From a virus: 64,000 bases of DNA. The translations under genes were made by a program, and so were the position numbers. Location: positions 1-64,000 of the IMG/VR virus record IMGVR_UViG_3300020183_000065; one strand, given 5' to 3'. Positions 1 through 26,104 of this stretch are shown here, one piece after another; positions within the stretch are counted from its first letter, which is position 1; each line of letters opens with the position of its first letter. The notes under the pieces were generated by a model that had not been told where the DNA came from, made no database searches, and saw nothing but the letters and a program-made list of their open reading frames with translations.

Positions 1-2767
1 ATTTGTGAAAATTCTCATCATCTCTTAAATGAAACTCAGTAACTATTTTTGGTATTGTTTTTAAAAATTCAATGTTACTTGGTTGGAATACATCATACTC
101 ACCCCCTTCACAATCACACTTTAAAAAATCAATTTTTTCAATACCATTGTCATCTAAAAATTCTCTAAAACTAAATGTTGGCACACTTTCACTAATCCCA
201 TCCCAGGTAATATTAATTCTTTTTTTGTCGGTTATCGCTCCTTGGATTATTTTAACTTTATCTTTTCCAACATTTTTATGTAGTACCTCAACTTGGTAAG
301 ACAACGGTTCAACAACGTAACATAGTTTAGGGTTGTTTGGTAATATTGAATATGTAAATGGGCCCATTGAAGCTCCTAAATCGACAACAACATCGCCACT
401 TTCAACAGTAAAAAATCTGTCATACACATTATTATTTTCAATTTCTTCCTTTGCCGCGTCACTGTACCAATTATTTTTACCACCCCAATCAAACCCCTCT
501 AATTTTGATTTGGTAACTGTGTTTTCTTTATTCATAATTTTATTTATTTGATTTATCACCATTTCTGATGTTATTTGTTTTGAACATTCAAACATTCTAT
601 CCGTATCTTTATGTAGGGGACACCAATTCCAATCACCAGCGTTTAATCTTTCTTTATTAAAACATCCGTGACAAACATTTTCATTTATAACTCTATATGT
701 GTTTAATTTTGTTTCGGCCCATTTTTCACTAAACCCTGAAATTAAAACAACCGGCAATTCACAAGCCCAAGCTAACCAACTTAATCCGGAACCTAACCCT
801 ATAAAAAATTCACAAGTTGACATATCATTTATTACTTCCTGTAAATTACCACCTTTAAAAACCTTAATCCCATTTGGGTAATTATTACCCATATATCCAT
901 CACCCTCCTTTGAGTATACAATACAATCATAACCTAACGAAACAAGATGATTTATGACCTCTTGCCATCCGGTGGGGTTGTTCCAGTATTTAGCTTGTGC
1001 GGTTGAGTGGAAACCAATACCAACTTTTTTTTGTTTTGTGGTTACCGGTAAATTTAATTTTGGTCTTTGTTCAAAATATTCTAATCCAAGAATATCTGTT
1101 GCTGTTTTTTGTAATGGCTGATTTCTTACATCAAATTTATGGTTATTTTCATTTAATTCACCGTCATCTTTATAAAACCAACCAAGTCTATATTGTGCAT
1201 GTAAATTTTCTACAATTTCTCCAGGTTTAACAAATTCAATTTCAGGATACTGATCTACAAAAAGATAATTCATAAATGTTGACACTATTAATTCACAACC
1301 ATGTTTTAATCTAAAAAGATCACAATATGGTATCCAAGCTAAAGTATCACCAAGAGATTTTGAACCAAATGAAATATAGACTCTTTTATTTTTAAGATCT
1401 AGAGTGTTTTCGTAAACCGTATTTTCATTTTCTTTTACTTCGATTTTCCAATTGGTGTAATACTCTCTATTTAACTTTACCCAACTATTAATTGGTAAAT
1501 TATTATCATAAATTAAATTATTTTCGTCATCAAAAAACTTAATATTAAATTGATTATCACTATCACCTGTAATTCCAAAAAATGGATTTACAACATAGTG
1601 TTGGGTGAAGTTATAATTATTTTTTATTTTATTATTTTTATTGTATGGTAATTCTAAAACTTTATTATAAAATGAGTATAATTCATCACCAAAATAATTT
1701 TTTTCCTCAATTTTATAACAACTATTTGACTCAATTAGATCTATAAGTTGTTTTGAAATATCTTCTGGTGTATTGTTTTTAATTGGGGTTATGTAATTGT
1801 CAAACATCCCCACGTATTGTGGTAGGTTTCTTGTTAATATTTTCAAACCATAATTAATTGACTCTCTTACAACTAGTGGATTACACTCCCATGTTGAGTT
1901 AAACATCAACACGTCACAAGCTTTCATAAAAGAATCAACATCACTCCTTTCACCCCAAACAGTAACATTGTTCGGTAAATCATCCATAATTGGTTTCCAG
2001 TAAGATTCAAAGTTTGGAGCTTGATTCCCAATAAAATGAAAATGTATATCTGGATTTGTTTTTTCTAAAATTCTAGCGACCTCAATACCCTCCTTTTGAT
2101 TTTTACCTTCAGTCCATAACCCAACATTTAGGATGTGTGTTTTAAATAAATCTAAACCCAAAGATTCTCTTTCTGTTATTTTTTGTATAATTGGAATTTT
2201 ATGATCATCATAAAATATATTCAAATCATTTAAAATTGGTTTTACCTTATCCTCATATGGATATAAATGATGTTCTTTATAAACTTCTTCGGTAATGAAT
2301 GTATTGTAATGGTATTTGGTTACAAAAGAATACGCGTCAGGGTGAAATTTTTTATTTGTGGGGTTAAACCAAACATTATGACAAGTTTCAACAATTTTCC
2401 AAGTTCTGGAATTATCATAGAACTCATTTAATAAATCTAAAGACATTTTATTAAAACTTTCAAACGCTTCCGGTATTTCTTCAAAATGAACAATGTCAAT
2501 ATTAAGATCTTTAATTATTTTAATTAATTCTTTTTTTCTTTTAATTTCAGTTGTCCCACCTAAAGTAAAAAAATGACCCAAGTCTAAAAGATCTATTATT
2601 TTATTTCGTTGGACGATGTAGGTATCACTAAATTGTGAATATTCTATTAAGTAGATGTCAATCTTATCTTTAAATTTTTGTAATGACTCAATTCTTTTTA
2701 ATACAAATTGTGGCATACCCCCAGTGGAAAGATGGGGGGTTATATAACAAATCTTAATCTTTTCCAT
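1..2767 (-). CDS. Three-module glycosyltransferase / O-heptosyltransferase-like / FkbM methyltransferase, 3' end outside window
   Basis: The frame is open from an ATG at 2767 to the window edge, at least 922 codons. Module 1 (about residues 1 to 400) looks like a GT4 GT-B glycosyltransferase: an early GGMPQF loop and a late ECNPLVVRE stretch that fits the E-x7-E motif of this clan. Module 2 (about 460 to 760) begins YISFGSKSLGDTLAW and resembles the GT9-like O-heptosyltransferases of the TibC type that modify autotransporter adhesins; it carries the Cys cluster CHGCF (near 697) and WCPLH (near 715) that binds iron in TibC. Module 3 (from about 780) has VVVDLGASMGPF and FLKCDCEGGEYD, typical of FkbM-family SAM methyltransferases. 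The likely job is building and methylating a glycan on a phage or host surface protein. It is divergent from the GT9 gene at 2902. The target is unknown; module order is read directly, functions are inferred. Confidence 0.8.
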   Translation of the reverse strand, partial: MEKIKICYITPHLSTGGMPQFVLKRIESLQKFKDKIDIYLIEYSQFSDTYIVQRNKIIDLLDLGHFFTLGGTTEIKRKKELIKIIKDLNIDIVHFEEIPEAFESFNKMSLDLLNEFYDNSRTWKIVETCHNVWFNPTNKKFHPDAYSFVTKYHYNTFITEEVYKEHHLYPYEDKVKPILNDLNIFYDDHKIPIIQKITERESLGLDLFKTHILNVGLWTEGKNQKEGIEVARILEKTNPDIHFHFIGNQAPNFESYWKPIMDDLPNNVTVWGERSDVDSFMKACDVLMFNSTWECNPLVVRESINYGLKILTRNLPQYVGMFDNYITPIKNNTPEDISKQLIDLIESNSCYKIEEKNYFGDELYSFYNKVLELPYNKNNKIKNNYNFTQHYVVNPFFGITGDSDNQFNIKFFDDENNLIYDNNLPINSWVKLNREYYTNWKIEVKENENTVYENTLDLKNKRVYISFGSKSLGDTLAWIPYCDLFRLKHGCELIVSTFMNYLFVDQYPEIEFVKPGEIVENLHAQYRLGWFYKDDGELNENNHKFDVRNQPLQKTATDILGLEYFEQRPKLNLPVTTKQKKVGIGFHSTAQAKYWNNPTGWQEVINHLVSLGYDCIVYSKEGDGYMGNNYPNGIKVFKGGNLQEVINDMSTCEFFIGLGSGLSWLAWACELPVVLISGFSEKWAETKLNTYRVINENVCHGCFNKERLNAGDWNWCPLHKDTDRMFECSKQITSEMVINQINKIMNKENTVTKSKLEGFDWGGKNNWYSDAAKEEIENNNVYDRFFTVESGDVVVDLGASMGPFTYSILPNNPKLCYVVEPLSYQVEVLHKNVGKDKVKIIQGAITDKKRINITWDGISESVPTFSFREFLDDNGIEKIDFLKCDCEGGEYDVFQPSNIEFLKTIPKIVTEFHLRDDENFHK

Positions 2768-2901
2768 AAGGTAAAAATAAGTTTTTAATTTGTAAATTAA
2801 AGTATTCATAAAATAAATTCGGATAGTAGTGACACAACATTTAGTTCTTTAACACCTTTCTAATATTTTATTTTTTTTAAAAAAACTTATCATTATAAAT
2901 A

Positions 2902-3837
2902 ATGAAAGAAATTTGTATTGATATTACGGGATGTAGAGCTTTAGGTGACACACTATGTTCAACACCAGTAATTAGAAAAATAAGTCAAATATATAATAAA
3001 AAAATATCGGTAATATCACACCATTTTGAAATATTTAAAAATCTACCATACATAGATAAAAATTTTCAGTACAGTCCAAGTACGTATGACCAAATAAAAA
3101 ATGAATACGAAATATTTTCCACATTTGATATTTCATATAAAGACAATGGTGTTTGTTATAAACATAATGTAATGGATATTAGACAATTTCACGCTATTAA
3201 TCTTGGATTTATGTTAACAAAAAATGAAATGGAATTAGATTTTATTCCTGACACATTTTGTCAAATACCGGACTTACCTAAAAAATATGTTTTAATACAT
3301 CCTGTACAAAATTGGAATTCAAGGACTTGGTCCGTTAAAAACTGGAAAATTTTAGTAGAATTATTAAATGATAGTGGAATACATGTTATTTCAGTTGGTA
3401 AAGATTCTTCTGAACTTGGGGGGTCAAATGTTGATAAACCAATATTTAATTTCCCAATAAAACTTGGTCTTAATTTAATGAATAAAACATCTTTAGATGA
3501 AACTTGGGGTTTGATAAAAAATAGTTCTTGTTTTGTAACAATGGACTCGGGTTTATTACATTTAGCTGGAACAACAGATGTGGAGATAATACAACTAGGT
3601 AGTTCGATAAATCCGGAATTTAGATCACCATATAGACGTGGGTCCCAAGAATATAAATATCATTATATTAGTGGTGGTTGTGGGTTACACTGTGCTTCAG
3701 ATATGAAGTATGGTGTTCGTGAATGGGGGTCAATACAAGGTATTCCATCATTAGTCAATTGTCTTGAAAAAAAAGAAACATTTGAGTGTCACCCAAACCC
3801 ATTGTTGGTGTATAATGAAATTTTGAAAATAATTTAA
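2902..3837 (+). CDS. GT9-family (heptosyltransferase-like) glycosyltransferase
   Basis: This 311-residue protein has the GT9 layout: an N-terminal ALGDTLCSTPVIRKI loop, a middle YVLIHPVQNWNSRTW segment that binds the nucleotide-sugar donor in this family, and TMDSGLLHLAGTTD, the conserved D-SG-H-A block of GT9 enzymes. The C-terminal part contains several cysteines (CGLHC and later single ones), recalling the iron-binding cluster of TibC-like O-heptosyltransferases and of module 2 of the divergent gene. It probably transfers a heptose-like sugar in the same pathway as its neighbours. The ATG directly abuts a TATAAATA octamer (2894 to 2901), leaving no room for a normal ribosome site, so the octamer is unlikely to be its promoter unless the message is leaderless. 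Confidence 0.75.
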   Translation: MKEICIDITGCRALGDTLCSTPVIRKISQIYNKKISVISHHFEIFKNLPYIDKNFQYSPSTYDQIKNEYEIFSTFDISYKDNGVCYKHNVMDIRQFHAINLGFMLTKNEMELDFIPDTFCQIPDLPKKYVLIHPVQNWNSRTWSVKNWKILVELLNDSGIHVISVGKDSSELGGSNVDKPIFNFPIKLGLNLMNKTSLDETWGLIKNSSCFVTMDSGLLHLAGTTDVEIIQLGSSINPEFRSPYRRGSQEYKYHYISGGCGLHCASDMKYGVREWGSIQGIPSLVNCLEKKETFECHPNPLLVYNEILKII

Positions 3838-3842
3838 TTTGG

Positions 3843-3850
3843 TATTTATA
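3843..3850 (+). promoter_or_regulatory. TATTTATA octamer, candidate late promoter element
   Basis: TATTTATA lies 14 nt before the ATG at 3865. The same octamer at nearly the same distance precedes many virion genes in the window. Confidence 0.45.
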
Positions 3851-3864
3851 TTAAAAAAATAATA

Positions 3865-4095
3865 ATGCCTTATCAAGTTTCAGTTTCGGGTACTACCGGA
3901 ACACCCCCATATGATTTATATGTTTGTGATATAACAAATACATACTGTTATTTATCTGCTAGTGGGGTTACAATTTCACCCCCATATACATTTTACGTTT
4001 CACCACCATTAGATGTTGTTGAATCGCTTATAATAAAAATTCTTGATTCTAATGGTTGTGAACGATTTGAGGTGGTGTCTTGTTTGTTACTTTGA
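3865..4095 (+). CDS. Small SprB-repeat-like / Ig-like protein
   Basis: This 76-residue protein has its own octamer element and lies alone between two glycosyltransferase genes. The sequence starts VSVSGTTGTPPYDLYV and ends LDSNGCERFEVVSC. The GTPPY near the N terminus and the DSNGC near the C terminus match the signature positions of SprB-type repeats of Bacteroidota adhesins, so it may be a single beta-sandwich module. No signal peptide is visible. It could be a small virion decoration protein or a substrate of the surrounding glycosyltransferases. The fold is inferred from two short motifs only. Confidence 0.5.
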   Translation: MPYQVSVSGTTGTPPYDLYVCDITNTYCYLSASGVTISPPYTFYVSPPLDVVESLIIKILDSNGCERFEVVSCLLL

Positions 4096-4151
4096 TTAAA
4101 AAGTATAGTTTATTTTTTTTCATTTCATAATATATTTTAAATAAAAAAGTT

Positions 4152-5399
4152 ATGAAAATATTCATTCAAATCGCTTCCTACAGAGATCCACAATTGGTAC
4201 CCACAATAAAAGACGCTATTGATAAATCAAAATACCCGGAAAATTTAATATTTGGGATTGCTCGTCAATATCACCCAGAAGATAAATTTGACGATCTTTC
4301 TTTATATGATGAGGATGAAAGATTTAGAATTTTAAATATTCCACATGAGGAATCTAAAGGTGTTTGTTGGGCTAGAAATCAAGTACAACAACTATATGGT
4401 GGTGAAGAATATACTTTACAAATTGATTCACATATGAGATTTTCGGAAAACTGGGATGAGGAATTAATTAATATGATATTTGATTTACAAAATAAAGGTT
4501 ATAAAAAACCATTATTGACGGGATATGTGTCTTCATTTGACCCAGAAAACGATCCTGGAAATAGGGTAAATGAACCTTGGAGAATGGTTTTTGATAGATT
4601 CATACCAGAAGGTGTTGTTTTTTTCTTACCCGAAACAATTCCTGGTTGGAAAGATTTAACGGAACCGATTACCGCTAGATTTTATTCAGCACACTTTTGT
4701 TTCACACTTGGTCAATTTAGTGTTGAGGTACAACATGACCCTGAGTATTATTTTCACGGTGAGGAAATATCTATCGCTGTTAGAGCTTACACTCACGGGT
4801 ATGATTTATTTCATCCACACAAAGTTATTATTTGGCACGAATACACTAGAAAAGGTAGAACAAAACAATGGGATGATGATAAATCATGGTATTTGAAGAA
4901 TGAATCTTCCCACAAAAAGAATAGACAAATATTGGGTGTTGATGGTGAGACGTTTGATGGTGATCTAGGTAAGTATGGGTTTGGTACTGAAAGGACAGTA
5001 AGGGACTATGAAAAATATTCTGGTGTTTTATTTTCTAAAAGAGCGGTACAACAATATACTATTGATAAAAAATACCCACCAAATCCACATGACTATGAGA
5101 CAGAAGAAGAATGGATGGAAAGTTTTTCAACCATATTTAAACACTGTATCGATATTTCGTTTAATAGTGTCCCAGAAGATGATTATGATTTTTGGGTTGT
5201 GGCTTTTCACAATGAAAAAGATGAAACCTTATTTAGACAAGACGCTAGTCCAGATGAAATCAAAACAATGATGATGGATAAAGATGGGTATTGTAAACTT
5301 TGGAGACAATTTAACACAAATGAAAAACCCAAATATTGGGTTGTTTGGCCATACTCAAAATCAAAAGGATGGTGCGATAGATTAACTGGAAATTTATGA
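4152..5399 (+). CDS. GlcNAc-transferase-like (GT-A) glycosyltransferase
   Basis: The 415-residue protein opens with KIFIQIASYRDPQL, has GVCWARNQVQ near residue 70 and a metal-binding DxH motif in LQIDSHMRF (D92, H94). This is the pattern of the GlcNAc-transferase Pfam family (PF11397, Skp1-type), a GT-A fold acting on hydroxyl groups of proteins in eukaryotes and found in bacteria and large viruses. The stretch HGEEISIAVRAYTHG around residue 200 fits the acceptor or catalytic loop of the same family. It overlaps the next gene by the ATGA arrangement, so the two are probably translated in concert. The donor sugar cannot be told from sequence. Confidence 0.8.
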   Translation: MKIFIQIASYRDPQLVPTIKDAIDKSKYPENLIFGIARQYHPEDKFDDLSLYDEDERFRILNIPHEESKGVCWARNQVQQLYGGEEYTLQIDSHMRFSENWDEELINMIFDLQNKGYKKPLLTGYVSSFDPENDPGNRVNEPWRMVFDRFIPEGVVFFLPETIPGWKDLTEPITARFYSAHFCFTLGQFSVEVQHDPEYYFHGEEISIAVRAYTHGYDLFHPHKVIIWHEYTRKGRTKQWDDDKSWYLKNESSHKKNRQILGVDGETFDGDLGKYGFGTERTVRDYEKYSGVLFSKRAVQQYTIDKKYPPNPHDYETEEEWMESFSTIFKHCIDISFNSVPEDDYDFWVVAFHNEKDETLFRQDASPDEIKTMMMDKDGYCKLWRQFNTNEKPKYWVVWPYSKSKGWCDRLTGNL

Positions 5400-6337
5400 G
5401 ATTAAAAATACATAACCCTTGTAATCAATTTACAAAATATTATCGAAACTATAATTTATTTTGGGACGAATTAACAATTGAGTTAAATAAAAAATATGAG
5501 GTAATCGAAAATCGAAACTTTGAGGACGCTCATAAAGATAGATTTAATGTTAAATTTGATTCAATGATTGGTGATGTTGGGCTAAATTTAATGGAATGTG
5601 AATACGTTATTGAAAATTTAGATAGCGGTGATTTTTATGTATTGTCTGTTGCTGATATAATGAGTCAATGTATGTTGTATGAAAAAGACAACCCAAAATT
5701 AAAAAAGGTTTTGATATCACAATTTATAGATTATGAGGTAAAACATCATGCCAAAGAAAATTATGATAAGTATTCACCGTGGATTTATTTTCCATCACCA
5801 ATAAAAAATTTAGATGAGTATTATTTTGAACGTAAAAAAATAACATCGTTTATTGATAAGATGTGTTTTTGGGGTGTGACCTCTGAACGTCCTATTTTGA
5901 AATATTTTAATAAATCAATATTTGATGGGCCAAACTACATGGGGGATCAAGACAAATATTTTACAAATTTAATAAAATATAAAGTAGCTTTATCAATAGC
6001 TGGTGTTGGTGAACTTTGTTATCGTGACATAGAATGTATGGCAATTGGTGTTCCAATAATTAGATTCGAATACCAGACCGATTTGTATGAACCGTTAATT
6101 CCAAACTATCACTATATCTCTGTTGATTACGATAAAACCATACCAAAACATAATGAAATACACACTGATAGATTGGGTGATGAAAGACATTCGTATCAAT
6201 TAGAACAAAGATTTAATCAAGTTAAAGATGATTTAGAGTTTTTAACGTTCATCGCAAATAACGCTAGAAAATACTATGAGGAAAACCTTACCTCCCCAAA
6301 TAGGGTTATTAATACATTAAAAATATTGGGATTATAA
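5396..6337 (+). CDS. GT-B-like glycosyltransferase of unknown specificity
   Basis: The 313-residue product starts on an ATG inside the stop of the previous gene (ATGA overlap) and stops one base into the next start. No family is recognised with certainty. The C-terminal half has IAGVGELCYRDIECMAIGVPIIR, in which an invariant-looking E-C-M-A-G-x-P pattern resembles the donor-binding half of GT-B or exostosin-like enzymes. A WGVTSERPILKYF segment near residue 165 would be the inter-domain region. Tight coupling with the GlcNAc-transferase-like gene and the HtrL-like gene supports a role in one glycan pathway. The assignment rests on this motif and on gene order. Confidence 0.5.
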   Translation: MRLKIHNPCNQFTKYYRNYNLFWDELTIELNKKYEVIENRNFEDAHKDRFNVKFDSMIGDVGLNLMECEYVIENLDSGDFYVLSVADIMSQCMLYEKDNPKLKKVLISQFIDYEVKHHAKENYDKYSPWIYFPSPIKNLDEYYFERKKITSFIDKMCFWGVTSERPILKYFNKSIFDGPNYMGDQDKYFTNLIKYKVALSIAGVGELCYRDIECMAIGVPIIRFEYQTDLYEPLIPNYHYISVDYDKTIPKHNEIHTDRLGDERHSYQLEQRFNQVKDDLEFLTFIANNARKYYEENLTSPNRVINTLKILGL

Positions 6338-7182
6338 TGAAAACTTTAATATATACATCAATATATTCAAATTTATGGGGAACTGAATTTGGTGGTAGGC
6401 CTTCTAGACATTACCATTATAGATTATCACTAAAAAACATTTTAAATGTAAACGCTGATAAATTTATTTGTTTTGTCCCAATTGAGGAATTGGATGATTT
6501 AAAATCACATTTTTATGGGACCTGGGGTGTGTCTAAAGAAAAATTAGAGTTTGTTGTTTTTGATTTACAAAATACAAAATATTTTAACCAAATAAGAAAT
6601 TTAAAAGATTTGGACAAGATGAAAACAATTGACCGGTGTTTTGAAGTTCAATACAATAAATTTTTTTGGTATGATATGTTAGAAAATAAAGAATTGTATG
6701 ATAGAATATATTGGTTTGACGCTGGATTATCACACGGTGGTTTATTCCCAGAAAATTTAGCTTATGGGTCAGGGTTTGATAGACATTTTTTGTTTACATG
6801 TTTTAATCAAGATTTTTTAATGAAATTGAATACTTTATCTGAAGAAAAATTTATTTTAGTTGGTAAGACTAATTCCGGGAGATTTCTTTGGTCACAAACA
6901 ATACCAGAAAAATATTATAGGGAATTTAAAAGAGATCATCATATTATTGGTGGTTTTTTTGGTGGTAAACCAAAAATGTTTGACAAATTGAAAAACAATT
7001 TTGAGTCATTATTGCTTGAGCTTTTAAATAATGAACCATTACTTTATATGGAAGAACAAATATTGTCCTGTTTATATTATGAAAAAACAAATGATTTTGA
7101 ATTATTGGCTTTTGATGATTGGTATCGTAGAGAAGATCACGTTGATAGTGATATAAAATATTTTTATAATTTATTCGAATAA
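6337..7182 (+). CDS. HtrL/YibB-like glycosyltransferase-type protein
   Basis: This 281-residue protein shares its main motifs with the first half of the next gene: YWFDAGLSHGG (compare FWIDAGITNT) and IIGGFFGGKPKMFDKL (compare VARGGFFGGDKNL), followed by an EEQILSCLY segment (compare EESLFTILL). These are the landmarks of the HtrL/YibB family, linked to surface polysaccharide synthesis. The two adjacent genes are therefore probably diverged tandem duplicates. Start and stop overlap by one base with both neighbours. The aspartate in the WxDAG motif is likely to coordinate the sugar nucleotide, by analogy with GT-A enzymes; this is an inference. Confidence 0.6.
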   Translation: MKTLIYTSIYSNLWGTEFGGRPSRHYHYRLSLKNILNVNADKFICFVPIEELDDLKSHFYGTWGVSKEKLEFVVFDLQNTKYFNQIRNLKDLDKMKTIDRCFEVQYNKFFWYDMLENKELYDRIYWFDAGLSHGGLFPENLAYGSGFDRHFLFTCFNQDFLMKLNTLSEEKFILVGKTNSGRFLWSQTIPEKYYREFKRDHHIIGGFFGGKPKMFDKLKNNFESLLLELLNNEPLLYMEEQILSCLYYEKTNDFELLAFDDWYRREDHVDSDIKYFYNLFE

Positions 7183-8858
7183 TGAACACAACATTAGTAA
7201 CTGGGTTATGGGACATTGGTCGTGGAAATATGACTGAAGGATGGTCAAGATCTTTTGATCATTATTTATTAAAATTTAAAGAACTATTATCTGTTGACTG
7301 TAATATGATAATATTTGGGGATAAAGATTTGATGGACTTTGTTTTTAAACATAGGTCACAAGAAAATACACAGTTTATTGTACGTAAAATTGATTGGTTT
7401 AAAACTAACGAATTTCATGATAAAATACAAAAAATAAGAACTAATCCAGATTGGTACAACCAGGTTGGGTGGTTATCAGATTCTACACAATCAAAACTAG
7501 AGATGTACAATCCATTAGTAATGTCAAAAATGTTTATATTACATGACGCTAAAATTTTAGATAGGTTTAATTCAGATAAATTATTTTGGATTGACGCTGG
7601 GATTACAAACACAGTACACCCTGGATATTTCACAAAAGATCTTGTACTTGAAAAAATTAACCGAGAATTAAATAAATTTAACTTTGTTTGTTTTCCATAT
7701 GAAGCTAATACCGAAGTTCATGGTTTTAACTATGATAAAATGTCTGAATTATCGGGTGAAAAAACAAAAATTGTAGCTAGGGGTGGATTTTTTGGTGGTG
7801 ATAAAAATTTAATCACAGATTTAAATACTTTATATTATAATTTACTCATGGGCACATTAAATAACGGTTACATGGGTACAGAAGAAAGTTTATTTACAAT
7901 ACTACTTCACCAAAACCCAAACATAATAAATTATTATGAAATAGGGGGGGATGGTTTGTTATATAAATTTTTTGAGGATTGTAAGAACAATAGTTTAAAT
8001 GTTAAAAACAAGAGTAAAAGATTAGTTAGAAATTACATAAATGACACCGGATCTGTTGGGTTGTATGTAATAACTTTTAATTCCACCAAACAATTTGAAA
8101 CTTTAATAGAATCAATTTTAGAATATGACTCAGATTTTATCACAAAAACAAAAAAATTCCTACTTAATAACTCAACAGATTTGTCAACAACAGATGAATA
8201 TGTCCGATTATGTAATATGTATGGGTTTGAGCATATAAAAAAAGACAATATTGGAATTACTGGTGGTAGACAATTTATTGCTGAACATTTTAATGATCAG
8301 GAAGATTTGTCTTTTTACTATTTTTTTGAGGACGATATGTTTTTCTATAACGGTCCAGATCAAGTATGTAAAAATGGGTTCAACAGAAAAACAAAAAATT
8401 TATTTAATAAAACGTTATCAATATTAAAAAATGAGGATTTTGATTTTTTAAAATTAAATTTTACTGAATTTTTTGGTAGTCACGATAAACAATGGTCATG
8501 GTATAATGTACCACAAAATTTTAGAGAGTCACATTGGCCAAACAACAAAACCTTACCAATTAGAGGGTTGGACCCAAACTCACCAAATTTAGAATTTAAA
8601 CATATAAAATCTTTTGATGGGGTACCATATGTTTCTGGTGAAATATATTTATCCAATTGGCCTATTCTTATGTCAAAATCAGGGAATTTTAAATGTTATA
8701 TTGAAACCAAATTTCAACACCCATACGAACAGACGTTAATGTCACATTGTTTCCAAGAGACAATTAAGGGTTGGGTAAATCCGGGTCTACTTTTAATGAC
8801 ACCAACCGAACACAACCGATTTGAATTTTATGATGGTAATTTAAGAAAAGAATGTTAA
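7182..8858 (+). CDS. HtrL/YibB-like domain fused to a GT-A glycosyltransferase domain
   Basis: The 558-residue protein has two halves. Residues 1 to about 270 match the HtrL/YibB pattern: LVTGLWDIGRGNM at the start, FWIDAG at 135 to 140 and GGFFGGDKN near 201. Residues 290 to 558 form a second domain starting LYVITFNSTKQFETLIESI, with FFEDDMFFY at 381 to 389, a D-x-D type metal site typical of GT-A enzymes. The link near 270 to 290 is rich in Lys and Asn. Such a protein could add two sugars in sequence. It ends the glycosylation operon; the next gene, with its own promoter-like octamer, starts 27 nt later. Confidence 0.65.
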   Translation: MNTTLVTGLWDIGRGNMTEGWSRSFDHYLLKFKELLSVDCNMIIFGDKDLMDFVFKHRSQENTQFIVRKIDWFKTNEFHDKIQKIRTNPDWYNQVGWLSDSTQSKLEMYNPLVMSKMFILHDAKILDRFNSDKLFWIDAGITNTVHPGYFTKDLVLEKINRELNKFNFVCFPYEANTEVHGFNYDKMSELSGEKTKIVARGGFFGGDKNLITDLNTLYYNLLMGTLNNGYMGTEESLFTILLHQNPNIINYYEIGGDGLLYKFFEDCKNNSLNVKNKSKRLVRNYINDTGSVGLYVITFNSTKQFETLIESILEYDSDFITKTKKFLLNNSTDLSTTDEYVRLCNMYGFEHIKKDNIGITGGRQFIAEHFNDQEDLSFYYFFEDDMFFYNGPDQVCKNGFNRKTKNLFNKTLSILKNEDFDFLKLNFTEFFGSHDKQWSWYNVPQNFRESHWPNNKTLPIRGLDPNSPNLEFKHIKSFDGVPYVSGEIYLSNWPILMSKSGNFKCYIETKFQHPYEQTLMSHCFQETIKGWVNPGLLLMTPTEHNRFEFYDGNLRKEC

Positions 8859-8864
8859 TTAATA

Positions 8865-8872
8865 TATTTATA
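8865..8872 (+). promoter_or_regulatory. TATTTATA octamer, candidate late promoter element
   Basis: TATTTATA ends 13 nt before the ATG at 8886, the preferred distance seen across the window. Confidence 0.5.
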
Positions 8873-8885
8873 TTAAAAACATTGA

Positions 8886-9731
8886 ATGGAGTTTTTCATT
8901 AAAAAAAATGCCACACTACCGGTTTTAAAATTACAAGTAGTCAAAGATGGACGTAGTGATTACAATAAGATGATGGATCTTATTGAGGAGTCGTCCATAT
9001 TTTTTTCTATGGTGGACATTGAAACTGGCATACCTAAGTTAGTCACTAGACCAGCTGGTTTTGTTAACAAAGTAATGTTGGATCCAAACGCTGAACCAGA
9101 ATATTATGTATATTATCAATTTTCAAATAAAGACACAAATCGTGTTGGTAGGTATGAAGGTCAGTTTTTATTTAAAACCAGTGAGGGTAATTTAATATTA
9201 CCAATTAGGGAAAAATTATACATCACAGTACAAGATAGTTTTATTTCAGATGATTTACCATATGAGAGTTGTTATGTTAGTGAGTTTCCTTGTTGTGTAC
9301 CGTCAAACCCGGTGATAACAACTACAACAACTCAATTTTGTTTTATAAACCCAGAAACACCACCAGAATTAAATTTGGTAGTTACAATATTACCCGGATC
9401 AATAAACATAACGTATAACCTATTTTCAAATAAACCGGTTTATCAAGACACCACATTAAATTTCACTCATATATTGGGTGTTCTATATGGTGATCCGATA
9501 ACAATAACAACCGGTATAACAATAAGTGAAAAAAGTATATTTAATTCATTGACAATAGTAATAGATGATGAATATACTAGATTATCAAGGATTGATAGTT
9601 TTGAATTTGTATCAACAATCCCGTTAAATTTACAATGGACAATTAACGAATCGTTTCCGTTATCACCAACACCTACACCAACAAATACACCAACACCAAC
9701 ATTAACGTCTACTCAAACGATTAATTTTTAA
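8886..9731 (+). CDS. Virion adhesin-type protein with Thr/Pro-rich tail
   Basis: No family is recognised for certain. Residues 1 to about 130 form a compact beta-rich domain that reads like the N-terminal Ig-like domain of baseplate upper proteins. It is followed by CCVPSNP and a run of threonines near residue 145, a second beta domain, and a mucin-like tail of TP repeats (SPTPTPTNTPTPT) in the last 25 residues. The same kind of Thr/Pro linker occurs in the tail sheath protein at 21777. The gene begins a block of fibre genes, so a part in a distal tail or fibre structure is likely. The Thr/Pro tail is a plausible O-glycosylation target of the adjacent enzymes, which is a guess. Confidence 0.5.
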   Translation: MEFFIKKNATLPVLKLQVVKDGRSDYNKMMDLIEESSIFFSMVDIETGIPKLVTRPAGFVNKVMLDPNAEPEYYVYYQFSNKDTNRVGRYEGQFLFKTSEGNLILPIREKLYITVQDSFISDDLPYESCYVSEFPCCVPSNPVITTTTTQFCFINPETPPELNLVVTILPGSINITYNLFSNKPVYQDTTLNFTHILGVLYGDPITITTGITISEKSIFNSLTIVIDDEYTRLSRIDSFEFVSTIPLNLQWTINESFPLSPTPTPTNTPTPTLTSTQTINF

Positions 9732-9741
9732 TAATAATCAA

Positions 9742-9749
9742 TATTTATA
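9742..9749 (+). promoter_or_regulatory. TATTTATA octamer, candidate late promoter element
   Basis: TATTTATA ends 12 nt before the ATG at 9762; a second in-frame ATG follows at 9765. Confidence 0.5.
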
Positions 9750-9761
9750 TAAAAAAAGAAC

Positions 9762-10043
9762 ATGATGTTAACAGGAAATACAATCGGTAATTATTTTTAT
9801 AATAATACAATTGGTGAATACTTTTATAATAACGTGGTTGTTGATGGATTTTATTCAAACACAGTTTTTGATTTTTTCCAATTAAATGATGTTAGGGTCT
9901 CAATTTTTTCGACTGATTTTAGTAGTGATACACATGTTTATGGGGATTATAATTGTACTTTATTTAAAAATTCATCACTATCCTCAAGACTATCATACTA
10001 TGATGGGTCTGATGTATTAAACATAACAAACATAACAAATTAA
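9762..10043 (+). CDS. Small fibre-associated protein with NxIGxYFYNN repeats
   Basis: The 93-residue product starts with near-repeats of the form GNTIGNYFYNNTIGEYFYNN, then VVVDGFYSNTVFDFF, a period of about 10 residues with an aromatic pair, suggesting a short beta-solenoid. The C terminus is Ser/Asn/Thr rich. The gene sits 2 nt before the large fibre gene, so it is likely co-transcribed and may be a fibre partner or a connector. No known family is recognised. Translation could begin at 9762 or 9765; both leave an A-rich leader behind the octamer. Confidence 0.45.
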   Translation: MMLTGNTIGNYFYNNTIGEYFYNNVVVDGFYSNTVFDFFQLNDVRVSIFSTDFSSDTHVYGDYNCTLFKNSSLSSRLSYYDGSDVLNITNITN

Positions 10044-10045
10044 AA

Positions 10046-12415
10046 ATGGCAGATAAAAGAATATCACAATTACCTTACGTTGGGAATACTGGTTATACAA
10101 CTAGTGATTTAATAGCTATAGTAAACTATGATGTGCCGAGTGGTACAACAAAACACACACCATTAAGTCAGTTTTTACCTTACGTTTTAAGTGGGGTAAC
10201 ATCTGGTGGCGATATTGTGAGTGGAACGTATTTCCCATCATCGGGATTATTACAATTAGATAATTCTACTGGGGGTACAATAAATATAACTGGATACCAG
10301 TATGTTGTTGGTGGGTCTTATAATGACATAACTGAAGAATTAACCCTAACAAATAATGACGGTACTACAGTTGTTATCCCGGGATTTACTGATTTATATT
10401 TCACGGGAATGACCTTCCAAACCCCATCTATGGATTTGACGATAACTAGAAACGATGGGTTTAGTGATACCGTAAGTTTATTACCGTTAATTGGTGATAC
10501 ATTTGTTACTGGTGGAACTTATGATTTAAATACTGGTGACGTACAATTTACAAATAATACTGGAGGTACGTTTATTGTGACTGGATTTGTAACCGGTTAT
10601 ACTGATCATTATGTGACGGGTGGTACTTATGATATAACAACTGGTACATTAGACCTTGACACACAAACAACTACAGCTACAATAACTGGTATTAATATTT
10701 TACATGAAATAGGTACCGGTATAGAATCAATCCAAAGGATAAATGTAAGTTCAGATTCTTTTGGTGATTACTCATCTGTACTTGGTGGGGAAGGTAATAC
10801 ATCTAACACGTCACACAGTAATGTTAGTGGTGGATACTATAACACTTCTGAAGGTTGCTCAACAACCATTAGTGGTGGTTATTGTAACACAGCGTCAAGA
10901 TGTTATTCAGTTATTAATGGTGGTATATCCAATTTTTCAAACGGTAGATGTTCAGTTATTAATGGTGGTTCTAATAACACAGCTATTGGTATTTCATCAA
11001 TAATTGGTGGTGGTAATTTAAATACAACTGAAACCACTGGGATAATCGGTGGTGGTGAGTTTAACACAATAACTAACAACGGATCTAATTCGGTAATAAT
11101 TGGTGGACAATACAACACTTCAGATGGTACATATGGTAGTATTTTAGGTGGTGCTTCAAATGTTGTGGTACTAAGTTCTGATTTAACAACAATTGGTGGT
11201 GGATCCGAAAATACAGTCCTATCAAATTATGGAAATATTAATGGTGGATTTTGTAACACAATATGGGGACCAAATGATTGTTCGGTAATTGGTGGTGGAT
11301 TTAAAAATAAAATAATACGTACTAACTCACTTTCAGTTATAGCTGGTGGGTCTTGTAATATTAGTGATGGGATACATAATAATATATCCGGAGGATTCCA
11401 AAATACATCATATTCTTTTTGTTCCGTAATTGGTGGTGGATGTAAAAATACAGTATGGAATACTGGATTAGGGTCCACAATCGGTGGTGGTTCGTTTAAC
11501 ATATCTTTAGGTGGTCAATCCGTAATAGCTGGTGGGTGTGGTAACACATCATACGGTTCTTGTAGTTTTATTGGGGGTGGTTGTCAAAATACCACTTTTG
11601 GTGATGACTCGATTGTTGTCGGTGGTTACCTAAATAAGTCAACAGCTCTTTGTTCAACTCTTGTTGGGGGGTCAAACAACACGTCATCGAACAACGGTAG
11701 TTCGGTTCTTGGTGGATCTAATAATGTTAGTAGTGGAGCTTTCTCAATAGTTGGTGGTGGTAACGGTAATACATCTTTGGGTTGTCGTTCAGCGGTTGTT
11801 GGTGGAATTCAAAATACATCAACATCATCACACGGATTTATTGGTGGAGGTTGTCGAAATACATCCTTGGGTAATTGTTCGATAGTTATCGGTGGGTTAA
11901 GAAATACAACACAATCAAATTATAATATAGCCTATGGTTGTGGAGCTTCAACAACCAGATACGGTCAACATAGTTGGTCTGTCAATACATTTTCATCACC
12001 CGGTGACAATCAAAAGGTTGAGTTTTTAATGTCCAATTTAACTTCAAACGCTACACCGACTAAACTTTATTTAGATGGTGTTGGTAATACTTTTGGATTG
12101 TCAGTACCTCTAAATAAGTCAATGTTTTTGACCGTGTCAATTTCAGCGGTACAAGAAAACGCGTTGCCTTCATGTGGTATTGGGTGTTCAGCTCACTACA
12201 TTAGAAAAGTAGCTGTTAAAAATATTGGTGGAAACACTCAATTAATTGGTACTGTTTCAACTATAGGTACTGATATGGAAAACAACACTTCTTGGAATGT
12301 CTCGATTACTGCTAACAACGTTATAGATGAGTTAGAAGTATTTGTTACTGGTCAGTTAGGAGCTAACATACGTTGGACAGCCCATGTGGTTGGTGTAGAA
12401 ATGTCTTGGATTTAA
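10046..12415 (+). CDS. Tail fibre with about 25 autotransporter-like beta-roll repeats
   Basis: The 789-residue protein has a short virion-attachment-like N terminus (MADKRISQLPYV, then a PLSQFLPYVLSG segment typical of fibre bases), three beta-rich repeats with VTGGTYD or TGGTFI turns (residues 80 to 220), and from about residue 245 to 630 some 25 copies of a 15 to 18 residue unit with the consensus I-x-G-G-x-x-N-T-S followed by a turn and S-V or S-I. This is the head-type beta-roll of trimeric autotransporters and other adhesins. Around 16 repeats carry a cysteine at similar places. The last 160 residues begin with AYGCGASTTRYGQHSW and form a fibre C-terminal domain of the kind that follows such rolls. 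It is likely the host-binding fibre, and is Ser/Thr/Asn rich. Confidence 0.8.
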   Translation: MADKRISQLPYVGNTGYTTSDLIAIVNYDVPSGTTKHTPLSQFLPYVLSGVTSGGDIVSGTYFPSSGLLQLDNSTGGTINITGYQYVVGGSYNDITEELTLTNNDGTTVVIPGFTDLYFTGMTFQTPSMDLTITRNDGFSDTVSLLPLIGDTFVTGGTYDLNTGDVQFTNNTGGTFIVTGFVTGYTDHYVTGGTYDITTGTLDLDTQTTTATITGINILHEIGTGIESIQRINVSSDSFGDYSSVLGGEGNTSNTSHSNVSGGYYNTSEGCSTTISGGYCNTASRCYSVINGGISNFSNGRCSVINGGSNNTAIGISSIIGGGNLNTTETTGIIGGGEFNTITNNGSNSVIIGGQYNTSDGTYGSILGGASNVVVLSSDLTTIGGGSENTVLSNYGNINGGFCNTIWGPNDCSVIGGGFKNKIIRTNSLSVIAGGSCNISDGIHNNISGGFQNTSYSFCSVIGGGCKNTVWNTGLGSTIGGGSFNISLGGQSVIAGGCGNTSYGSCSFIGGGCQNTTFGDDSIVVGGYLNKSTALCSTLVGGSNNTSSNNGSSVLGGSNNVSSGAFSIVGGGNGNTSLGCRSAVVGGIQNTSTSSHGFIGGGCRNTSLGNCSIVIGGLRNTTQSNYNIAYGCGASTTRYGQHSWSVNTFSSPGDNQKVEFLMSNLTSNATPTKLYLDGVGNTFGLSVPLNKSMFLTVSISAVQENALPSCGIGCSAHYIRKVAVKNIGGNTQLIGTVSTIGTDMENNTSWNVSITANNVIDELEVFVTGQLGANIRWTAHVVGVEMSWI
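10775..11940 (+). repeat. About 25 degenerate beta-roll coding repeats of 45 to 54 bp
   Basis: The DNA repeats a GGTGG-rich core followed by AAYAC(A/T) (Asn-Thr) about every 48 bp. The repeats differ at third positions and in length, so they are old and under protein-level selection rather than recent expansions. They give the shadow reading frames on the minus strand in this stretch. Confidence 0.75.
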
Positions 12416-12502: not shown

Positions 12503-15460
12503 ATGATATCACAAGAAGAAATTAAAAATTTCCTAGAAGGGAATGATCCGGAAGAATATATTGTTTCCGTTGAGTTTGATCACAAATCAGATCACATTTA
12601 TAAAATTAAAGAAGTACCGGGTAAAGGTAAGTTGGTACAAAGAGATTCACTGATAGCTTTTGCTTGGGTTGGGGATTTAAGGGGTATGAACTTTTACAAA
12701 TCATCCAAGGACCAACAAAAAGAAGCTATGTCTAAATACGGTATAATGATTGAAAAATTGCGTACCGATGGAAATGAAAGACTTGAATCCGGTCTTACAT
12801 TTATGGTTAAATCTTTAAAAGGGTACAGGTCATTAGTTCAGTTTTTTAGGGATGGTGGACTGGATCCATGGGGTGAAAAATCAAAAAATAAAATTTTAAT
12901 ATTAAATCCGGTAGAACAATATTTAATCTCAAAAGAAAAAAGATTATTTAAAGGGTTTGAGGAGTATAATGATATTACTAGACTTGTATTCGACTTGGAG
13001 ACGACCGCTTTGGAACCAAAGGATGGTCGTATATTCATGATTGGGATTAAAACTAACAAGGGTTATAAAAAGGTAATTGAGTGTTCCGATGAAGATGAGG
13101 AACGTAGGGGTATAACAGAATTTTTCAGAATTATAGATGAAATTAAACCATCAATAGTAGCTGGATATAACTCATTTAACTTCGACTGGAATTGGATCTT
13201 TGAGAGGTGTAAGATGTTAAACTTGGACATTAAACGAATATGTAAGTCATTATCACCAGAAAAATCTATATCACAAAAAGACTCCTTATTGAAATTAGCT
13301 AATGAGGTTGAGAAATTCCCCCAAACTCAAATATGGGGTTATAACGTAATTGATATTTTACACTCGGTTCGTAGAGCTCAAGCGATAAACTCAAACATTA
13401 AGGAAGCTGGTCTTAAGTATATTACAAAGTTTATTGACGCTGAAGCTGAAGATCGAATTTATATCGATCACACCAGAATTGGTCCTATGTATAGAGATAA
13501 AGAAGAATATTGGTTAAACATTAAAAATGGTAACTATAAAAAAGTTGGTGTTGATTCTAACATAGATGAGGTTTGTGAAAGAAGAACTGACACATATATA
13601 AAAACAACTGGTGATGATATTGTTGAGAGATATCTTGACGATGACTTAGAAGAGACGTTATTGGTGGATGATGAATATAATCAAGGTTCATTTCTTCTAG
13701 CGTCGCTATTACCAACAACGTATGAGAGGGTGTCAACCATGGGTACAGCTACTCTTTGGAAAATCTTAATGTTAGCTTGGTCATATAAACATGGGTTAGC
13801 TGTTCCAGGTAAACAAGAAAAACGTGACTTTGTTGGTGGATTATCTAGATTAATAAAAACTGGGTATTCTAGAAATGTATTAAAACTTGACTACTCATCA
13901 CTATACCCATCAATTCAATTGGTTCATGACGTGTTCCCAGAATGTGATGTTACTGGGGTTATGAAAGGTTTATTATCATACTTTAGAAATTCTCGTATTA
14001 TGTATAAGAATTTAGCTGAAGAGTATTCCACAATAGATAAGAAAAAATCATTATCATTTGACCGAAAACAATTACCGGTTAAAATATTCATTAACTCCAT
14101 GTTTGGCGCGTTATCAGCTCCTCAAGTATTTCACTGGGCTGATATTGATAAGGGTGAAATGATTACCTGTACTGGTAGACAATATCTTCGTATGATGATA
14201 AATTTTTTCATGGATCGTGGATATGTACCATTAGTTATGGACACCGATGGTATTAACTTTTCAGTACCTGACGGAACTGAATCTAGAAGATATATTGGTA
14301 AGGGTTTAAACTGGAAAGTTGTTGAGGGTAAGGAATATGTTGGTGAGGAAGCTGATGTAATGGAATTTAATGACCTGTCAATGAGAGGTGAAATGGCGTT
14401 AGATACTGATGGTCAATGGCCAGCGTGTATTAATTTAGCTAGAAAGAACTACGCACTTATAACAGCTAAAGGTAAAATAAAACTAACCGGTAATAGTATT
14501 AAGTCAAAGAAGATGCCAAAATACATTGAGATATTTCTAGATAAAGGTATTAAATTATTACTAGATGGTAAAGGTCAGGAATTTATTGAGTGGTACTACG
14601 AGTATTTACAAAAAATTTGTGATCAAAAAATTCCACTATCTGAAATAGCTAACAAAGGTAGAATAAAACAAACTGTAAAAGACTATAAAATACGTAGTAC
14701 ACAAAAAACAAAAGCTGGTAGTTTAATATCTAGACAAGCTCACATGGAACTTGTAATTAAGGATGATTTAAATGTTAGTCTGGGAGATGTCATTTACTAT
14801 GTTAATAATGGAACAAAAGTTTCACAAGGTGATGTTCAGAAAGTTAACAAACCAAAGAAGGGGTGGAGTGAAGAACAGGTGAGATTGTTCTTTTCACAAG
14901 GTGAAAGATCAGATTATAAAAATAAAGAACAATTCCTATTAAACAACGGTTGGGAAAAATCTTGGTCGGATGATAACTGGGTACGTAGTGACTCTAAGTA
15001 TAAGGAAGCGAATAACGGTGTACCAACAGACGTAGCGTATAGAGCGGCTAATTCAGATTCTGTCATACAACTTAATTGTTATAGAATTGATCCGTCAGAT
15101 TTAGAGAATAATCCTGGAATGTTAGGTGAATACAACATACCTAGAGCGGTATCAACATTTAACAAACGGGTAGAACCTTTGTTAGTGGTTTTCGATAAAG
15201 AAATTAGAGATTCTATATTGGTATCAAATCCGGAAGATAGATCATTTTTCACTAAAGAACAATCACGACTAATAAACGGACAACCCTTTGAGGAGAAAGA
15301 TCAGGATGATTTATATCGAGATGTTATGGAAATAACAAATGATGAGAAATTATTTTGGGAAAAAGTGGGGGTTAGTCCTTATCACATGTATAAAAACGCT
15401 GACCCACTTATGTTAAAGTATGTAGATGAGGATGAATTAGTCAATCTTCAGTCCGTCTGA
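12503..15460 (+). CDS. gp43: Family B DNA polymerase with 3'-5' exonuclease
   Basis: The 985-residue protein is a T4 gp43-type replicative polymerase. Exonuclease motif I is FDLETTAL (D164, E166), motif II is AGYNSFNFDWNW (near 227). Polymerase motif A is LDYSSLYPSIQ (D462), motif B KIFINSMFGALS (near 531), and motif C VMDTDGINF (catalytic DTD at about 579 to 581). All catalytic residues are present and the length is normal, compared with 898 in T4; the excess is mostly in the last 300 residues. It has its own host-type promoter and a leader hairpin and no Shine-Dalgarno sequence. It overlaps the convergent gene at 15437 by 24 bp at the 3' ends. Confidence 0.95.
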   Translation: MISQEEIKNFLEGNDPEEYIVSVEFDHKSDHIYKIKEVPGKGKLVQRDSLIAFAWVGDLRGMNFYKSSKDQQKEAMSKYGIMIEKLRTDGNERLESGLTFMVKSLKGYRSLVQFFRDGGLDPWGEKSKNKILILNPVEQYLISKEKRLFKGFEEYNDITRLVFDLETTALEPKDGRIFMIGIKTNKGYKKVIECSDEDEERRGITEFFRIIDEIKPSIVAGYNSFNFDWNWIFERCKMLNLDIKRICKSLSPEKSISQKDSLLKLANEVEKFPQTQIWGYNVIDILHSVRRAQAINSNIKEAGLKYITKFIDAEAEDRIYIDHTRIGPMYRDKEEYWLNIKNGNYKKVGVDSNIDEVCERRTDTYIKTTGDDIVERYLDDDLEETLLVDDEYNQGSFLLASLLPTTYERVSTMGTATLWKILMLAWSYKHGLAVPGKQEKRDFVGGLSRLIKTGYSRNVLKLDYSSLYPSIQLVHDVFPECDVTGVMKGLLSYFRNSRIMYKNLAEEYSTIDKKKSLSFDRKQLPVKIFINSMFGALSAPQVFHWADIDKGEMITCTGRQYLRMMINFFMDRGYVPLVMDTDGINFSVPDGTESRRYIGKGLNWKVVEGKEYVGEEADVMEFNDLSMRGEMALDTDGQWPACINLARKNYALITAKGKIKLTGNSIKSKKMPKYIEIFLDKGIKLLLDGKGQEFIEWYYEYLQKICDQKIPLSEIANKGRIKQTVKDYKIRSTQKTKAGSLISRQAHMELVIKDDLNVSLGDVIYYVNNGTKVSQGDVQKVNKPKKGWSEEQVRLFFSQGERSDYKNKEQFLLNNGWEKSWSDDNWVRSDSKYKEANNGVPTDVAYRAANSDSVIQLNCYRIDPSDLENNPGMLGEYNIPRAVSTFNKRVEPLLVVFDKEIRDSILVSNPEDRSFFTKEQSRLINGQPFEEKDQDDLYRDVMEITNDEKLFWEKVGVSPYHMYKNADPLMLKYVDEDELVNLQSV

Positions 15461-26015: not shown

Positions 26016-26104
26016 TTATTATATTTTATAAGCAGCTAGCTAATTAATTATTACATTTTATAAGCAGCTAGCTAATTAATTATTATATAAAAAGCTAGCT
26101 TGCT
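26009..26104. repeat. Tandem 32-bp repeats with GCTAGC palindromes
   Basis: Two full copies of a 32-bp unit (26009 to 26040 and 26041 to 26072) differ at one base. A third, diverged copy follows to about 26104, and contains the palindrome AAGCTAGCTT. Each unit has TAATTAATTA, an AT-rich run and GCAGCTAGC. The array covers the end of the HAD gene and the spacer before the tube gene. Its role is unknown: recombination relic, protein binding site or RNA structure. Confidence 0.8.

Follow-up and report, generated by a model that had tools for sequence, protein, structure and literature searches.

O-glycans on collagen-like repeats are found on BclA-type spore proteins, on the Thr-galactosylated collagen of a vent worm, and on mimivirus collagen, in each case added by enzymes different from the one considered here. 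Mycobacteriophage virions are reportedly glycosylated as well, by glycosyltransferases that the phages encode and that presumably target proteins of the virion, these being again other enzymes with other targets. The substrates of the O-heptosyltransferase TibC are type Va autotransporters; UspA1, which we take to be a trimeric autotransporter adhesin, is of type Vc, and we know of no case in which the UspA1 type serves TibC as a substrate class. The closest described systems are the autotransporter O-heptosyltransferases (BAHT/TibC-AAH; PDB 4rap and 4rb4), of which TibC modifies Ser in the passengers of TibA/AIDA-I autotransporters (PMC4358343, in the part cited), and the collagen-like side-tail proteins of E. 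coli O157:H7 phages. The part of PMC3368898 cited here describes the recombinant form of the latter as unglycosylated, credits its stability to a high share of Pro, and states, with a reference, that Thr glycosylation can stabilise collagen. Among the open-access papers listed in literature searches, none was found that, by title and abstract start, describes TibC in a phage or heptosylation of a collagen-like protein. Here we describe a gene island at the left end of IMG/VR record IMGVR_UViG_3300020183_000065, which comes from an environmental sample and whose first 64,000 of 67,054 bases constitute our window. Because the window encodes a tail sheath, a baseplate wedge, a DNA polymerase, and a ribonucleotide reductase, we regard the virus as a myovirus-like phage. 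The island opens with an enzyme that contains a TibC domain and ends with a putative repeat fibre. We consider it somewhat probable that it provides phage-encoded O-glycosylation of the phage’s own fibres, probably heptosylation of a Ser/Thr-rich collagen-like fibre. This reading builds on observed domains, conserved catalytic residues, a coupling of TibC to mostly Thr/Ser-rich collagen, HldE-like neighbours, and TibC-(GTS)n pairs in contigs of bacterial metagenome-assembled genomes (MAGs).

Judged by its sequence, the TibC domain of the first gene product, a fusion with GT4 and FkbM domains, is genuine. Island proteins were searched against Pfam, NCBIfam, and PHROGs for families, and against PDB for solved structures. 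The fusion matched TibC itself in PDB (4rb4, E = 2e-65; 4rap, E = 7e-65), and alignment to these structures placed window residues D488, T603, K607, and W678 at TibC D110, T226, K230, and W305, and window C713, C716, C730, and C742 at the iron-finger cysteines C339, C342, C358, and C370. In the cited part of PMC4358343, Asp110 is catalytic, Thr226 binds sugar, and roles are also given for Lys230, Trp305, and the four iron-finger cysteines. Asp110, Lys230, Trp305, and the four Cys were invariant in all 59 dereplicated rows, which came from viral contigs, phages, the window, and two MAG contigs of phage-like character, and Thr226 was present in 58 of them. L567 and L568 are titled as bacterial MAGs, yet by gene content they look like phage DNA. 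In a first-pass annotation of this DNA, two enzymes had looked TibC-type. That description holds for the fusion, which clears the TIGR04414 cut-off of 200 bits (Table 1), but not for its neighbour at 2902–3837, a GT9 protein that reached 29.6 bits with the same model and fell below every NCBIfam cut-off.

The window enzyme and TibC-AAH are alike in domain homology, in the catalytic Asp, Lys, Trp, and four Cys, and in the Ser-rich repeat protein found nearby in many window relatives. They differ in that the window enzyme is fused to GT4 and FkbM and has Arg286 replaced, in that no strand-loop-strand autotransporter was found here, and in their place in the tree. In that tree (95 domains, reduced to 66 at 90% identity), three autotransporter (AIDA)-linked bacterial enzymes split from the other 63 rows with support of 100/100. 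Full-length relatives of the fusion measure 972–974 amino acids (aa); because the alignment with the 974-aa enzyme of L004, the window’s sister in the tree, stops at residue 923, we estimate that our record lacks some 50 codons.

In most same-synteny relatives that reach past the TibC gene, its neighbour was a giant protein of Gly-Thr-Ser/Gly-Thr-Asn triplets, with up to 904 triplets and Pro near zero. In L004 a gap of 39 bp separates the TibC gene end from the collagen-like gene, which encodes 2723 aa (PF01391 collagen, 840 bits), and PF01391 exceeded its Pfam cut-off in 21 of 24 TibC records. Since our record ends inside the TibC gene, the corresponding collagen gene would sit just outside it, at a predicted distance of about 150–250 bases from the record end; no collagen-like gene was found in the first 22 kb of the window, and none was noticed among its open reading frames (ORFs) elsewhere. 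Like the E. coli O157:H7 phage proteins (PMC3368898, cited part), these relatives’ proteins bring Gly-X-Y repeats to phage fibres; unlike them, most TibC-linked collagens have near-zero Pro and are dominated by Thr/Ser. A bare triple helix made of such near-Pro-free repeats would be doubtful. A separate observation concerns Microcystis phage Mel-JY01, where TibC and a collagen gene are 1.7 kb apart and a (+) strand Gly-Thr/Ser-Ser collagen ORF, open at the record start (L006:2–3052), is overlaid by two (−) strand genes annotated as ‘hypothetical’, probably a wrong-strand annotation.

Long TibC-bearing contigs were compared as 20-kb tiles, using 18 of 24 long records (G014, G017, G018, and W01–W03 were left out, and G007, G012, and G015 were compared without their last bases). 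A collagen-like gene was present in 17 of the 18. It was the immediate neighbour of TibC in five (G001, G003, G004, G005, and G015; gaps of 0–80 bp), and in G004 the one collagen gene among 287 genes adjoins TibC. The two genes were oppositely oriented in G001 and G003–G005 and in the same orientation in G015. Tests of collagen-TibC closeness gave per-contig p values from 0.004 to 0.88 (Fisher-combined p = 8e-8, kinship ignored). At dereplicated TibC loci, we called a Gly-X-X run of at least eight triplets collagen-like; 40 of 62 loci had such a run, versus 7 of 84 tiles lying more than 20 kb from TibC on the same contigs. Outside a 15-row clade of stand-alone TibC enzymes, set apart post hoc from the tree, the count was 37 of 47.

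We also ran the TibC profile against records that had been chosen blind to TibC, for the type of their collagen or for a beta-roll repeat. Two collagen scans yielded at least 239 loci from the matches listed, 167 of them with a Gly-X-X stretch; of these, 52 were grouped as Thr/Ser-rich, 72 as Pro-rich, and 20 as other types, with 23 outside the thresholds. The Thr/Ser group was reduced to 50, as L402 and L413 were on contigs already in the set. The beta-roll group, from a pattern scan, went from 50 to 48 (L331 came from another scan and L552 showed no roll by eye), with eight duplicates removed; because the pattern misses the window’s own fibre, this sample represents the same repeat type and not orthologues. 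Results showed TibC in 17 of the 50 Thr/Ser-rich, Pro-free collagen records, compared to 1 of 72 Pro-rich records (p = 5e-7, Fisher test), none of 20 records with GTQ and other Pro-free collagens, and 3 of 48 beta-roll records (p = 8e-4), with kinship ignored in both tests. The added positive control, G001, was detected. Among records of at least 40 kb, the counts in the same order were 12/22, 1/23, 0/5, and 3/26. The contrast between Thr/Ser-rich and Pro-rich collagen is confounded by GC content, whose median in the pieces retrieved was 0.37 for the former and 0.52 for the latter, but it persisted among records with GC below 0.42 (13/42 vs 1/11; GTQ and others 0/11, beta-roll 2/42). Generic GT2 enzymes were unbiased in the 45 longer collagen records, occurring in 7 of 22 Thr/Ser-rich and 8 of 23 Pro-rich ones, where TibC stood at 12 and 1, respectively.

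The first-pass annotation had instead proposed the fibre at 10046–12415 as the partner of the enzymes, and its count of about 25 beta-roll repeats was borne out. The fibre has 27 GGxxN motifs, of which 25 form a tandem array (aa 247–630) with a period of about 15 residues; 25 core motifs were observed versus at most three across 2000 residue shuffles. A profile of the repeats matched the UspA1 head (3pr7) with E = 6.9e-18, in seven stretches that keep the same 15-residue register. The fibre is like UspA1-type trimeric autotransporter heads in this GGxxN repeat and unlike them in that neither Pfam nor NCBIfam found an autotransporter domain in it. An AlphaFold monomer of the repeat part, modelled without an alignment, had a pLDDT of 38.8 and was set aside. 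No relatives of the fibre were found by tblastn among phages or by the related-locus search of IMG/VR, probably owing to masked repeats. The idea that the fibre belongs to the known TibC substrate class fared less well: TIGR04415 strand-loop-strand repeats numbered zero in the window fibre and zero in the L004 collagen, and 31, 19, and 28 in three Caballeronia/Paraburkholderia TibC-locus controls that served as bacterial yardsticks. The enzymes had also been placed directly beside the fibre; they do share its region, but the TibC fusion is encoded on the opposite strand with eight predicted genes between.

That TibC heptosylates this UspA1-like fibre appears quite improbable to us, although both are in the same island, the repeats are rich in Ser, Thr, and Asn, contig G003 has both fibre types, and L032 (contig G006) joins a GTSGTNG stalk and 14 GGxxN repeats in a single protein. 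The expected co-occurrence of enzyme and beta-roll did not appear: a clear GGxxN fibre was found in 2 of the 18 long TibC contigs (G003 and G006), so that relatives do carry the enzymes without such a fibre, and the share of TibC among beta-roll records was low, as given above. A Gly-X-X run was present at 2 of 47 beta-roll loci, or 3 of 48 when counting L360, which belongs to the Thr/Ser group as well as to the beta-roll group and was left out of the 47. The absence of strand-loop-strand repeats in the TIGR04415 search and the difference in type (Va for TibC substrates, Vc for UspA1) weigh in the same direction. The beta-roll fibre of the window may simply stand beside the system without taking part, or it may be modified as a second target; a third option, suggested by the union of stalk and roll in the L032 protein, is that it forms a fibre head. 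A Gly-X-X stretch and many GGxxN repeats were seen in one protein at L032:1–3858, L360:9049–14160, L478:2325–11927, and L484:7060–13005.

Some relatives of the window enzyme are followed by genes that resemble HldE, an ADP-heptose enzyme. An HldE-like gene pair was downstream of TibC at 12 of 80 loci (8 distinct at 90% identity); in 11 of the 12 it came directly after TibC, with ends overlapping by 1 to 4 bases, and in L036 after one cupin-like gene. The order in contig G007 (locus L036) was TibC, the cupin-like gene, hldC, hldN, a 123-aa ORF, and a (GSS)n collagen. In the two loci tested, from G020 and G007, the best NCBIfam models of the pair were the two halves of HldE. The best solved match of the kinase was heptose-7-phosphate kinase, and those of the nucleotidyltransferase were ethanolamine- and glycerol-phosphate cytidylyltransferases. 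The split kinase and nucleotidyltransferase genes lie in viral contigs (L036:8882–12569, L079:9923–12205, and ten further loci). The earlier proposal of phage fibre glycosylation is supported by the true TibC domain, the fibre-like repeat neighbours in many relatives, and the HldE-like pair; the beta-roll as specific partner is not supported.

Stand-alone TibC also occurs in bacterial MAG contigs (L569:9980–11423, L571:7779–10951, and L572:3596–5178), close to short proteins whose tails are made of (GTS/GSS)n repeats. The distance between the two genes was 7 bases in L569, about 110 in L572, and about 760 in L571, with one ORF between, and the tailed proteins have lipoprotein-signal-like starts by eye. 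Each pair is perhaps a small two-gene system. L570 is a weak case, with a GSS-rich protein 5 kb from TibC. A class-wide search for bacterial TibC found it in 2 of 369 genomes, both already in our set; as this added nothing new, the bacterial pairing comprises few cases, three clear and one weak.

The same comparisons bear on lineage hitch-hiking, in which one large phage group would carry TibC and Thr/Ser-rich collagen with no enzyme-substrate link. Kinship among the loci is widespread, phylogeny is ignored in the p values, and both the 33 Thr/Ser-rich collagen records without TibC and the 15-row clade mostly without nearby collagen would fit it. Adjacency was nevertheless seen in both orientations and on more than one deep branch of the tree, bacterial MAG contigs included, and GC-matched beta-roll records had TibC in only 2 of 42 cases. 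We assign hitch-hiking a low probability.

A number of points weigh against heptosylation of a collagen-like fibre. The collagen gene is absent from this record and predicted from synteny. TibC and collagen were 73.5 kb apart in G009 and 25.7 kb apart in G020, and G010 had no collagen; a Gly-X-X run was present in 3 of 15 loci inside the stand-alone clade, within the fetched 10 kb. Not all linked collagens have the expected composition: the five measured in G019 are Gln-rich, with Thr+Ser fractions of 0.18–0.34 and Pro up to 0.26, and those of L052, L063, L064, L074, and L078 are below 0.5 Thr+Ser. The 33 of 50 Thr/Ser-rich collagen records without TibC count here also, many of these being fragments. 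HldE-like scores in the two loci tested are under the curated cut-offs of TIGR02198/TIGR02199 (117–122 vs 345 and about 100 vs 181.5), and no TIGR02199 match was found in the window record or in G001–G005, which are fragments. Because the stand-alone clade, with most HldE-like cases, is mostly without collagen, G007/L036 is the only clear case in which evidence for the donor and for the acceptor comes together. Lastly, TibC Arg286, which contacts adenine, corresponds to V659 in the window, and among the 59 rows this column holds Val 39 times and Arg three times; the Pro300 donor-site column is Gly in 48 of 59. Changing Arg286 to alanine abolished or largely diminished TibC activity (PMC4358343, cited part). 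As a residue needed for full TibC activity is replaced, the donor may differ.

A further alternative is that the enzymes remodel the host surface, acting on lipopolysaccharide (LPS)/O-antigen or host glycoproteins to exclude other phages, and that the closeness to a fibre marks a hypervariable host-interaction region. We consider this unlikely. PF11397 enzymes presumably act on proteins, TibC is coupled to a single repeat chemistry, Thr/Ser-rich as opposed to Pro-rich or GTQ, a bias that generic GT2 enzymes do not share, and TibC-(GTS)n pairs exist in bacterial MAG contigs. Assignment of the 2902–3837 product to GT9, the LPS heptosyltransferase superfamily, would agree with host-surface remodelling, as would the pelagimyophage glycosyltransferases beside tail-fibre genes that are read in this way in the cited part of PMC7029224. 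TibC, however, targets proteins according to the cited part of PMC4358343.

We favour glycosylation of the phage’s own fibres, which could proceed as follows. The island would encode a cytoplasmic protein O-glycosylation system, in which the TibC domain would transfer heptose from host ADP-heptose, some relatives carrying HldE-like activation genes of their own. The acceptors would be hydroxyls, most likely of Ser and possibly of Thr, in a long collagen-like fibre of Gly-(Thr/Ser)-(Ser/Asn) repeats, encoded by a gene that we expect just beyond the left end of the record. The fused GT4 domain might then extend the glycan and the FkbM domain methylate it. Dense sugar would stiffen or protect the near-Pro-free repeat and change which surfaces the fibre adheres to.

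More tentatively, phages and bacteria could possibly share a system in which a TibC-like clade, apart from the three autotransporter-linked enzymes compared above, heptosylates Pro-free Gly-(Thr/Ser)-(Ser/Asn) repeats. Hundreds of sugars per chain would here replace proline/hydroxyproline and give a stiff, protected glyco-fibre, with some phages bringing their own ADP-heptose genes. Long Thr/Ser-rich ‘collagen’ occurs in many viral contigs without an evident reason for Pro-free folding, and the linked O-glycosyltransferase offers one. If true, this would carry TibC-type heptosylation beyond autotransporters, both to the fibres of phages and to small proteins in bacteria. At least 552 IMG/VR stretches encode TibC relatives, suggesting that fibre glycosylation may be common in such phages, as a little-noticed route by which they may sugar-coat their own fibres.

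The remaining island genes are listed in Table 1. The PF11397 family is, we assume, GT60, with polypeptide alpha-GlcNAc-transferase activity that places GlcNAc onto Thr or hydroxyproline. The first-pass description of a glycosylation island stands for a glycosyltransferase-type gene block at 2–8858, with a reservation for the 5396–6337 and 6337–7182 products, which had zero family matches in Pfam, NCBIfam, and PHROGs; because a family match is absent, we infer their glycosyltransferase label, by position only for 5396–6337. The PF11397 gene, the 6337-type gene, and the YibB gene form a second, separable module that may act on stretches rich in Thr-Pro, one example being the C-terminal tail of the 8886–9731 product. 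Homologues of that product in L016, L019, L026, and L027 have stronger Thr-Pro/Thr-rich stretches, and on this sequence basis it is a candidate acceptor for the PF11397 enzyme. The same three-gene cassette is also present in two jumbo phages, Xanthomonas phage XacN1 (L565:8989–15946) and Stenotrophomonas phage RAS14 (L566:8992–15341). No collagen-like gene was found near it in the fetched DNA of either, and neither phage was among the matches listed in a tblastn search with the TibC fusion. XacN1 has a 3313-aa protein with a Thr-Pro-rich stretch, adjoining baseplate genes. The cassette fits, weakly, a Thr-Pro-directed enzyme. DNA-base glucosylation was considered and then dropped, evidence for it having been neither sought nor seen.

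Table 1. Predicted genes and domains of the island, with the evidence for each call.
Feature	Coordinates	Strand	Evidence or remark
GT4 + TibC-type O-heptosyltransferase domain + FkbM methyltransferase fusion, 936 aa seen	2–2809	−	C-terminal end cut by record start
GT4 domain (Glycos_transf_1), aa 212–362	1724–2176	−	PF00534, 56.3 bits (cut-off 26.4)
TibC domain, aa 419–758	536–1555	−	TIGR04414, 290.1 bits (cut-off 200)
FkbM methyltransferase domain, aa 807–927	29–391	−	TIGR01444, 45.3 bits (cut-off 37.7); PF05050, 40.4 bits
GT9-superfamily glycosyltransferase	2902–3837	+	PF01075, 53 bits (cut-off 22); 75% identical homologue near TibC in L004
Small conserved protein, 76 aa	3865–4095	+	47% identical homologue in L004; no family match
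PF11397 glycosyltransferase	4152–5399	+	235 bits (cut-off 21); 49% identical in Xanthomonas phage XacN1
Island protein	5396–6337	+	33% identical to L024 protein from the same island
Conserved island protein	6337–7182	+	Homologues in XacN1 and RAS14
HtrL/YibB-family protein with long C-terminal extension	7182–8858	+	PF09612, 73 bits (cut-off 24.1), aa 2–254 of 558; homologues in XacN1 and RAS14
Protein with Thr-Pro-rich (mucin-like) C-terminal stretch	8886–9731	+	Sequence; putative tail role
Asn/Tyr-rich repeat ORF, 93 aa	9762–10043	+	ORF list
Putative fibre, 789 aa	10046–12415	+	Sequence; predicted virion location
25 tandem repeats of ~15 residues, xxSxIxGGxxNTSxG, UspA1-type beta-roll	10784–11935	+	Profile vs PDB 3pr7

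The fusion gene, cut by the first base of the record, is on the (−) strand and all later island genes are on the (+) strand, in the order GT9, 76-aa protein, PF11397, two family-less proteins, HtrL/YibB, Thr-Pro-tail protein, 93-aa ORF, fibre, and DNA polymerase. We looked for a contig of the same virus that bridges the left end by searching for a 34-base word. Three contigs shared the word, namely that of L004 (1213 bases compared without gaps, 76% identical), another that encodes the collagen protein of L004 (83% over 220 bases), and that of L025, and none was accepted as the bridge. The DNA polymerase (12503–15460) adjoins the fibre and is 23–34% identical to polymerases of Salinibacter and Nostoc/Anabaena phages; among named phages it has distant relatives only. 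A tandem repeat at 26009–26088 has a 32-bp unit in 2.5 copies with a 95% match, and is mostly between two ORFs.

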